From Halorubrum sp. 48-1-W (GTDB lineage Archaea > Halobacteriota > Halobacteria > Halobacteriales > Haloferacaceae), in contig NZ_QMIM01000021.1 of the NCBI RefSeq assembly GCF_003287355.1, positions 1 through 64,000 of the forward strand: a stretch of 64,000 nt of DNA, read 5' to 3'. Below, in pieces: positions 1-62,031 of this stretch. The notes beneath the pieces are model-generated. The model had not been told where the DNA came from. It saw only the letters and a program-made list of their open reading frames with translations, and searched no databases. Made by a program: the position numbers and the translations under genes. Positions within the stretch are counted from its first letter, which is position 1, and every line of letters starts with the position of its first letter.

Positions 1-55
1 CGCCCTCCGGGCGCTCACCGGCACGCCACCGCAGAATCGTTCGTTCCTTCACCTG
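1..55 (+). repeat. Terminal piece of the dispersed palindromic element (copy 0)
   Basis: This is the right-hand end of a dispersed element whose remainder lies off the left edge. The 55 bases are a perfect inverted copy of 17630-17684. They include the hairpin GCGCCC-TCC-GGGCGC and end in TTCACCTG. Nothing convincing is coded between here and 222; frames crossing this stretch are shadows. Confidence 0.85.
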
Positions 56-17559: not shown

Positions 17560-17629
17560 CCGTCCCGTTCGGCTCCGTTGAGATCCTCAACGAGTGACAG
17601 GTACGGAATTCGTTCGCGGATGCTCACTA

Positions 17630-17998
17630 CAGGTGAAGGAACGAACGATTCTGCGGTGGCGTGCCGGTGAGCGCCCGGAGGGCGCGAACCGACCGCGAGG
17701 GAGTCGGTGGTCCGACGCGAAGCGGAGGACCACCGACGAGGCTGGGGAGGTGTGAGGTGCGGTGCTGTGCGGTGCGGGTGGGATTCAAAGGGGCAGTCGT
17801 GAGGACGAAGCACGGCGACGTAAGCACTGGAAGGAGCGAGCAGTGCGAGCGACTGAAGCGCACAACGAGCCGCGCGAGTCCTCGCGACTGGGGCTTTGGA
17901 GGTATTCACCTCGCCAGCAACGATCTCGTTCCTATCAAGTCGATCTCTCACGAAACAACGGTACTATTAGCATTCGGTATAGACTGACTGTTTCAGGC
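17630..17998 (-). repeat. Dispersed palindromic element, copy A (near full length)
   Basis: Read on the minus strand, the element runs from about 17998 (CCTGAAACAG) through GATCGTTGCTGGCG, CAAAGCCCCAG, a long stem (17878-17890 with 17794-17806, one G-T mismatch), CTGCCCCTTTG and a pyrimidine-rich block. It then has hairpins 17704-17736 (10 bp stem) and 17671-17685 (GCGCCC-GGA-GGGCGC on plus) and ends in TTCACCTG at 17630. The terminal 55 bp equal the inverted complement of 1-55. It fills the 17560-18054 gap; no credible gene lies in it. Confidence 0.9.
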
Positions 17999-18054
17999 GA
18001 TTACACGCCTAATTAATAGAATTTCAACGAAGCCTCCCGTCCCGTGTTCAGCCT

Positions 18055-23576: not shown

Positions 23577-23775
23577 CGATCTATCGCCCAAGCGGTGGCG
23601 TCGCTATCGCCCAAGTGGGGGCGTCGCCGGCGCGAAGGGCCGGCTACCAGAGGCGCGGAGCGCCTTACGATTGGGGCTTTGGACGTCTGGGGCCTTGGAG
23701 GTGGTCTCCGAAGTCGCCATCACCGCCCCCACAAAGTCACCATCACTGCCCCCGCAACGAAACGCCCTGGATCAC
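23577..23775 (-). repeat. Dispersed palindromic element, degenerate copy E
   Basis: On the minus strand, matches to the family include GGCGACTTCGGAGA and doubled CCAAGGCCCCAG/CCAAAGCCCCAA blocks. They also include the hairpin at 23652-23664 (GGCGC-GGA-GCGCC on plus) and the near-perfect one at 23626-23644 (GCCGGC flanks). A local duplication of about 24 bp (CTATCGCCCAAG…) lies at 23581-23628. The rest of the 23393-23879 gap holds promoters of the two divergent genes at most. Confidence 0.65.
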
Positions 23776-43029: not shown

Positions 43030-43144
43030 ACTGTCATGTGGCGGCGAACGAACAAAAAGCCCGTATCGATGGCGGGTGTGGATCCCCGTCCCCAGGGCTC
43101 GGTTGACGTCGATTCCGTTGAAATCTGATTCTTCAGATATATTC

Positions 43145-43327
43145 TCACCTGAAACAGCCGGTCGATGAGAGCTACTAATGGTACGGTTGTTTCGATCGAG
43201 ATCGGCTTGATAGGAACGAGATCGTTGCTGGCGAGGTGAACACCTCCAAAGCCCCAGTCGCGAGGACTCGCGCGGCTCGTTGTGGTTCTCGTCGCTCACT
43301 GCGTTCGCTCCTGCGGTCCTTACGCCG
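43145..43327 (+). repeat. Dispersed palindromic element, truncated copy D
   Basis: The plus strand starts at CACCTGAAACAG (about 43147) and matches the left half of copy A closely, including ATCGTTGCTGGCGAGGTGAA and CAAAGCCCCAGTCGCGAGG. It stops after CCTTACG near 43325, so the right stem arm and hairpins are lost. It abuts the 3' end of the serine hydrolase gene (stop at 43345) and occupies most of the 43030-43344 gap. Confidence 0.85.
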
Positions 43328-58778: not shown

Positions 58779-58840
58779 GTGATGGTGTCGCGTACCGAAC
58801 TCGCACGAATAAACGGATCGGGATCGGTCGATGGGTGTAT

Positions 58841-59088
58841 GATCGTTGCTGGCGCGGTGAACGTCCTCAAAGCCCCAGCCTCACGGCTGCCCCTTTGAGT
58901 CCCGTCCCGCACAGCCCCGCAACCGCACCTCACGCCTCCCCAGCCTCGCTGCTCACTTCGTTCACAGCGTCCCTCGCGGGCTGCTCGCGCCCCGGTGGGG
59001 CGCTCGCAGGCGCAGGGCGAGAGCGACGCTCTCGCTTGAAGCCGGCGCGAAGCGCCGGCGACGCCACCGCAACTCGGTCATTGGTTCT
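58841..59088 (+). repeat. Dispersed palindromic element, copy B (internally deleted)
   Basis: It begins at GATCGTTGCTGGCGCGGTGAA. The central loop is missing: CAAAGCCCCAGCC-TCAC-GGCTGCCCCTTTG keeps the clamp (58868-58872 with 58893-58897) and a 5 bp inner stem (58876-58880/58885-58889). A conserved pyrimidine-rich block follows, then three triloop hairpins: 58987-59003 (loop GGT), 59017-59035 (loop GAC) and 59041-59059 (loop GAA). It ends in GCCACCGC and a diverged tail, filling the 58779-59167 gap. Confidence 0.88.
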
Positions 59089-59167
59089 CTTGCTCTGAAA
59101 ACACGAAGCGAAACCCTGCTGAGAACAGTTCTCCGGCACTTCCCGCGTACGGCGTCCGTCTCCCGAT

Positions 59168-61636: not shown

Positions 61637-62031
61637 GATCGTTGCTGGCGCGGTAAAGGCGACTTCGGAGAACACCGCCAAAGCCCCAGCCGCTCGGTAC
61701 TACAGAGCAGCGAGTACGACTTCGGAGAACACCGCCAAAGCCCCAGCCGCGAGGCGGGCGCACGCTCGTTGTGCTCCTCAGTCGCTCACTCCGTTCGCTC
61801 CCTGCGGTGCTTACGTCGCCTGCGCCCGCCTCGCGCCTGCCCCTTTGAGTCCCACCCCGCACAGCCCCGCACCGCACCTCACACCTCCCCAGCCTCGCGA
61901 CTCGCTTCGCTCGCCGCGTCCAGCGAGGGACCGAAGGTCCCTCTGGCAGCCGGCGCGAAGCGCCGGCGACCTCGCGGGCTCCTCGCGCCCTATCGGGCGC
62001 TCGGAGGCGCGCCACCGCGATCGCTCGTTCT
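61637..62031 (+). repeat. Dispersed palindromic element, copy C (most complete)
   Basis: GATCGTTGCTGGCGCGGT is followed by a 32 bp block twice (61661-61692, 61718-61749), each with CCAAAGCCCCAGCCG. A 15 bp perfect stem (61748-61762 with 61821-61835) sits inside the CAAAG/CTTTG clamp (61736-61740/61843-61847). Next come the pyrimidine-rich block and hairpins 61925-61943 (loop GAA), 61949-61967 (loop GAA) and 61985-62000 (loop TATC). It ends GCCACCGCGATCGCTCGTTC. No real gene: frames through it are interrupted and differ between copies. Confidence 0.92.

Follow-up and report, generated by a model that had tools for sequence, protein, structure and literature searches.

Dispersed palindromes of bacteria do not usually range beyond one species or genus, and the bacterial BOX and Correia elements are modular, intergenic, foldable and MITE-like. 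REPs are species-specific (PMC6006769). PATE and SMR elements have been described in Haloquadratum; PATEs possess neither inverted ends nor duplications and are related to IS605 ends (PMC3119063).

The element discussed here was found in a stretch of 64,000 nucleotides from Halorubrum sp. 48-1-W, hereafter the window. Its core is a hairpin (P1) followed by the tail AGTCCCRCCC, and orthologous sites are occupied or empty depending on the species. Like PATE and SMR elements it is haloarchaeal, transposase-free, palindromic or inverted-repeat, and present in high copy number; unlike PATEs, with which it was compared by description as was SMR, its bounded copies have inverted ends and duplications. 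The modular, intergenic, foldable and MITE-like character of BOX and Correia elements is shared, but the sequences are unrelated and these bacterial elements lack a class-wide invariant loop. It resembles REP, BIME and REPIN sequences as a set of high-copy intergenic palindromes with conserved structure and some inverted pairs, and differs from REPs in that P1 is about 100 nt long, contains an invariant 3x3 loop and is kept across genera. With IS5-family MITEs it has in common inverted ends of approximately 17 bp, 8-bp duplications, a non-coding sequence and parent ends in the genome; unlike in an IS5-type MITE, few copies keep these ends, the core covaries and is much better conserved than they are, and P1 is class-wide.

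We consider it somewhat probable that this is a dispersed, non-autonomous mobile repeat of haloarchaea with a structure-constrained core. The original prediction had proposed either a mobile element or a structured RNA/DNA element, and both descriptions apply, since some copies have transposon ends and duplications and the core covaries. That it did not recognise a described class agrees with the absence of an Rfam hit (the sole significant hit obtained with element copies was a neighbouring tRNA), of any annotation, and of a description in the open-access literature, where text matches of three element blocks were chance-like and in unrelated papers, and the class motif matched one unrelated paper.

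Copies in the window and organization of the cassette

All six predicted copies are present, with their blocks at the positions given and above chance, and they occur on either strand as had been claimed (Table 1). For instance, CAAAGCCCCAG is found seven times in the window with at most one mismatch, where 0.29 occurrences are expected, and GCACCTCACACCTCCCCAGC three times, compared to 0.00 in shuffles. The edge-cut copy consists of a right end alone, and the degenerate copy is indeed decayed. The copy placed at 17630-17998 is real, but its boundaries widen to a transposon-like unit that has inverted ends and is flanked by 8-bp duplicates differing at one base. The copy placed at 43145-43327 is truncated inside P1, but it starts near 43111 with the inverted end of that same unit. 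The paired hairpin P1, CAAAG-CCC-CAG...CTG-CCC-CTTTG, accounts for what had been called a variable stem. Compared with shuffled sequences, the long P1s of the window are much more stably folded, with z of about -3.6 to -6.5.

Table 1. Copies of the element in the window and their component parts
Feature	Position	Strand	Remarks
Full cassette: left block, one extra 57-bp module, P1, C-rich linker, P2 and P3 hairpins, CACCGC edge	61637..62031	+	Four relatives have an empty site here
Extra tandem 57-bp left module, starting CAAAGCCCCAG	61679..61735	+	
P1 hairpin, CAAAG-CCC-...-CCC-CTTTG	61736..61847	+	Fold z -4.4 (+ strand), -6.5 (- strand)
Conserved tail AGTCCCACCC, then C-rich linker with CACCTCACACCTCCCCAGCCTCG at its end	61848..61897	+	
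P2 region, hairpin and nested palindromes	61898..61969	+	Comparison with other copies
P3 hairpin with TC/TC internal loop, edge GCCACCGC	61970..62019	+	
Copy with minimal P1 (58868-58897), nested palindromes	58841..59088	+	Flank common to G136; orientation reversed in G057 and G038
Copy between inverted ends GGCTCCGTTGAGATCCT / AGAATTTCAACGAAGCC; P1 at 17786-17898	17571..18034	-	
Left 8-bp target duplication TCCCGTTC	17563..17570	.	Right copy TCCCGTCC at 18035-18042; 7/8 bases match
Left half, cut off within P1, with the left terminal repeat	43111..43327	+	
Decayed copy	23577..23775	-	Unoccupied site in G057 and G136, element present in G153
Only the right end kept: 3' strand of P3, GCCACCGCAGAATCGTTCGTTCC	1..55	+	

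On the plus strand the Halorubrum cassette consists of a left arm, GATCGTTGCTGGCG, the modules, P1, a linker running from CTTTGARTCCCRCCC to CACCTCACRCCTCCCCAGCCTCG, P2, P3 with its TC/TC loop, and the edge. The left modules are 57 or 51 bp long and begin with CAAAGCCCCAG; between zero and four of these are found in tandem. The variable parts contain nested palindromes. The module spacer is species-specific, and linker identity is 0.87 and 0.90 within species and 0.88 between species. The original prediction found no consistent frame, and a coding function is rejected because the stops in the modules differ between species and the lengths of linker and stem are not multiples of three. In many Halorubrum (L061-L100, L199-L278), TTTATAAA boxes recur at fixed spacing, both within the 57-bp modules and beyond the core; the genome studied here has a GTAC-containing sequence in their place.

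With gene calls made by a simple codon-score method, 3 of 105 copies fall inside predicted genes, so that the claim of an exclusively intergenic location is nearly, but not strictly, correct. Positions between convergent genes are enriched (37/88 elements versus 22%), and no strand preference relative to genes was found. A gene leader or terminator is ruled out by this lack of orientation bias.

Distribution and conservation of the P1 core

The source genome is a Halorubrum-type draft (69 contigs, 3.58 Mb). It gave some 40 matches when searched with the 61637 copy and 50 with a 70-nt profile of the 3' block; in all it contains about 45-50 copies. Many of these copies sit at contig ends, as is seen with repeats that break assembly; the element is unannotated and breaks draft assemblies. 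Two complete genomes, G132 and G144, contain at least 150 and 142 copies, respectively. Searches extended to other haloarchaea, as the original prediction had suggested, gave many further copies. The large family that it foresaw is real, but its range was underestimated: it is not confined to a single genome or genus and extends over most of the class Halobacteria. All same-genus genomes in the family sample have matches to the element, and among the matches listed for a strict 20-mer the named ones are all Halorubrum (about 30 species) or an archaeal MAG. Of 391 Halobacteria genomes, 286 contain the 19-mer GCCCCTTTSARTCCCRCCC from the 3' side of P1 with one mismatch allowed, and it is found in 68 of 86 genera. 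The highest number is 190, in G132, and G252, a member of another family, has 120; the reversed-pattern control was essentially empty. Relatives in other genera keep the same order of parts. A phage-borne element was also considered and dropped: exact-match searches of viral contigs returned 0 and 2 contigs, none of them from phages.

P1 has the form NAAAG-CCC-[variable stem, approximately 100 nt]-CCC-CTTTN, followed by the tail. In 198 Halorubrum P1s, 96.3% of positions are paired, versus 87.9% when the 3' arms are shuffled. The pairs flanking the CCC/CCC loop hold in nearly every one, while the loop itself is unpaired throughout (at least 196/198 at each position), and the pair types of the upper stem vary at the same position, for instance C-G 63, A-T 57 and G-C 56. 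Because in other genera a partner arm was accepted only above a pairing threshold, decoys were run as a control; the arm was present for 51 of 58 motifs in the fetched relatives, and 5 of 257 decoys passed. These 51 P1s are paired at 96.7% of positions (69.9% shuffled), exhibit 208 two-sided changes (55 shuffled), and invariably contain the 3x3 CCC/CCC internal loop. The closing helix likewise changes on both sides between genera, being CAAAG/CTTTG, GAAAG/CTTTC, GGAAG/CTTCC or, in one Haloarcula-group copy, GCAAG/CTTGC; the outer pair is C-G in Halorubrum and G-C elsewhere, and GGAAG/CTTCC is found in genus g10. Since the 3' motif served as search key in the other genera, its conservation there is partly the result of selection. 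The last CCC of the tail, which lay outside this selection in Halorubrum, is conserved at 98.5-99%, and the neighbouring bases vary. Most genera of an archaeal class share a single fold in which mismatch loop and tail are invariant while the stem sequence turns over, and a fold that is kept as its stem changes is a strong signal of structure recognition.

Might mutation alone, through palindrome correction by template switching, preserve the pairing with no selection on the fold? The near-perfect Watson-Crick stems and the many nested palindromes are what such a process would leave behind, but it should also have repaired the CCC/CCC mismatches, which are practically uncorrected, and the unpaired tail is nearly invariant; we regard this explanation as very unlikely.

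Of 200 Halorubrum copies, 183 have all four C/G triplets intact and at fixed spacing, although the base that separates two of the triplets varies. On the G-rich strand, GGG-Y-GGG-(AYTSAAA)-GGG-[hairpin]-GGG could form a G-quadruplex between two helices, and the molar potassium of the haloarchaeal cytoplasm could favour this. That P1 and its tail constitute a class-wide quadruplex-duplex switch read by a dedicated factor, which would be a new kind of dispersed genomic element, is an unlikely extension of these observations. The minus strand of the tail, GTGGGAYTGAAA, resembles the 3' terminus of type I-B CRISPR repeats from haloarchaea; this likeness is broken in Halorubrum by a base-paired change.

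Within the source genome, core identity is 87-89%, compared to 55-57% for the outer arms and 51% for random sequence, and in every pair among 20 copies the core exceeds the arms. Taken with the linker, which is as similar between species as within them, these values are in keeping with upkeep of a consensus and not with a recent burst.

Ends, target duplications and empty sites

Comparison with related species confirmed that sites can be empty. The 61637 site is unoccupied in four relatives, and the 23577 site in two but not in a third. At the 58841 site the orientation of the element differs between species. The surrounding interval (58831-59146) is hypervariable, holding the element either way round, another inserted gene in G136, small genes in G153, and an island of approximately 25 kb in G089.

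Both inverted ends (approximately 17 bp) are kept by 14 of 226 scanned copies, the other 212 having no recognisable pair. Ten of these 14 bounded copies are flanked by 8-bp duplications matching at six or more of the eight bases, three of them perfectly (GGTAGCAC, AATTTCAT and ACCGATTT). The search for matching ends near a transposase was also positive, since in the same genome identical GGCTCTGTTGAAATCCT ends enclose an IS5-family transposase (NF033579); no matching 8-bp duplication was found for the transposase unit itself. Because so few copies keep both ends, transposition is supported for the bounded copies rather than for most. We propose that the bounded copies are moved in trans by the IS5-family transposase, that the ends would decay after insertion, and that the core may be retained since a putative factor recognises the folded DNA as a hairpin or cruciform. 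Derivation from a fragment of one known IS is ruled out by the cross-genus structure. A unit of 462 bp (L191:594-1055) that lacks the core also carries the inverted ends of the IS5 transposon and is flanked by a perfect 8-bp duplication, TTGCGATC; it represents a second family of MITEs belonging to that transposon.

A different route would be that of a REP/RAYT-like or PATE-like element, in which an HUH (Y1) transposase processes the hairpin in single-stranded form and the unpaired bases serve as the recognition code. The element is intergenic, of high copy and kept in structure more than in sequence; Y1 genes are present in most Halorubrum genomes tested, IS605-type ends adjoin some copies, and PATEs are known from Haloquadratum (PMC3119063). 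Some P1 motifs of the Haloarcula group (L358, L371, L375) are arranged tail to tail, 59-60 bp end to end, much like BIMEs. Against these stand the absence of a GT[AG]G tag at a distance of 0-2 nt from the foot of the hairpin (0/51, either strand), and the Y1 genes of G132 and G144, none of which has an element closer than 1.5 kb. In G000 (the source genome) and in G100, a single Y1 gene lies about 0.2-1.1 kb from an element. Moreover, two copy-bearing genomes have no Y1 gene, one genome with Y1 has no copies by pattern, and the Halorubrum copies with duplicated targets carry IS5-type ends. We consider this route improbable, and Y1 transposase is rejected as a general partner, its presence not tracking copy number. 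IS200/IS605-type ends adjoin the element in 3 of 30 copies of the source genome (left flanks L024, L028 and L029), as if it were a preferred landing place.

RNA, DNA and the plasmid gene context

A TATA-like box lies outside the P3 edge, mostly by 6-8 nt, in roughly half of the Halorubrum copies, versus a background of 1.4%. Together with an excess of C.A over G.T mismatches on the Halorubrum plus strand (74 versus 16), which could reflect G-U pairs in a minus-strand RNA, and the purine-rich internal loops of that strand (GGG/GGG, GA/GA), this is what would be expected if the G-rich minus strand encoded a structured non-coding RNA, folded as P3, P2, linker and P1, whose genes were spread by mobile ends. 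Of the 24 copies scored in the source genome, however, 22 have no such box, and much of the mismatch asymmetry resides at one position. In the class as a whole, G-U (or its complement) makes up about 1% of stem pairs, and the few wobbles in the stems of other genera exhibit no asymmetry (9 versus 12). More than 150 copies per genome, indifferent to gene direction, would also be unusual for RNA genes, and Rfam contains no match. An RNA of this kind seems doubtful to us. The scarcity of wobble pairs in other genera, the lack of the box in the source genome and the absence of orientation bias lead us to lean, short of proof, to an element that probably acts as folded DNA rather than RNA.

On Haloarcula plasmids such as pNG500 and pHH126, one P1 is found upstream of an OB-fold (SOSS-B-like) gene, in line with it and at a distance of about 400-610 bp; the domain assignment of the gene product is weakly supported. 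This is true for 17 of 18 full-length homologues in the Haloarcula group, and the P1 is more conserved than the non-coding DNA immediately upstream of it; under the mobile-repeat reading the fold would have been kept here. The gene is absent from several high-copy Halorubrum, from which it follows that the protein is not a general partner of the element; it is rejected in this role, its presence being independent of copy number.

The plasmid arrangement, the intact triplets, the genus-stable linker and the enrichment between convergent genes might all be explained by a DNA site selected by the host, for protein binding, a quadruplex or chromosome organisation, with mobility incidental. Copy number within one genus ranges from 0 to about 190, from which we conclude that most copies are not essential, and we judge such a site a rather unlikely explanation for the family. 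The element would mark a factor or process common to haloarchaea and approachable in the culturable Haloarcula hispanica. On the Haloarcula plasmids, P1 keeps a fixed distance from the OB-fold gene and is embedded in a non-coding stretch of approximately 1.2 kb (L380:4001-5761, L386-L403), which is possibly a replication or control region.
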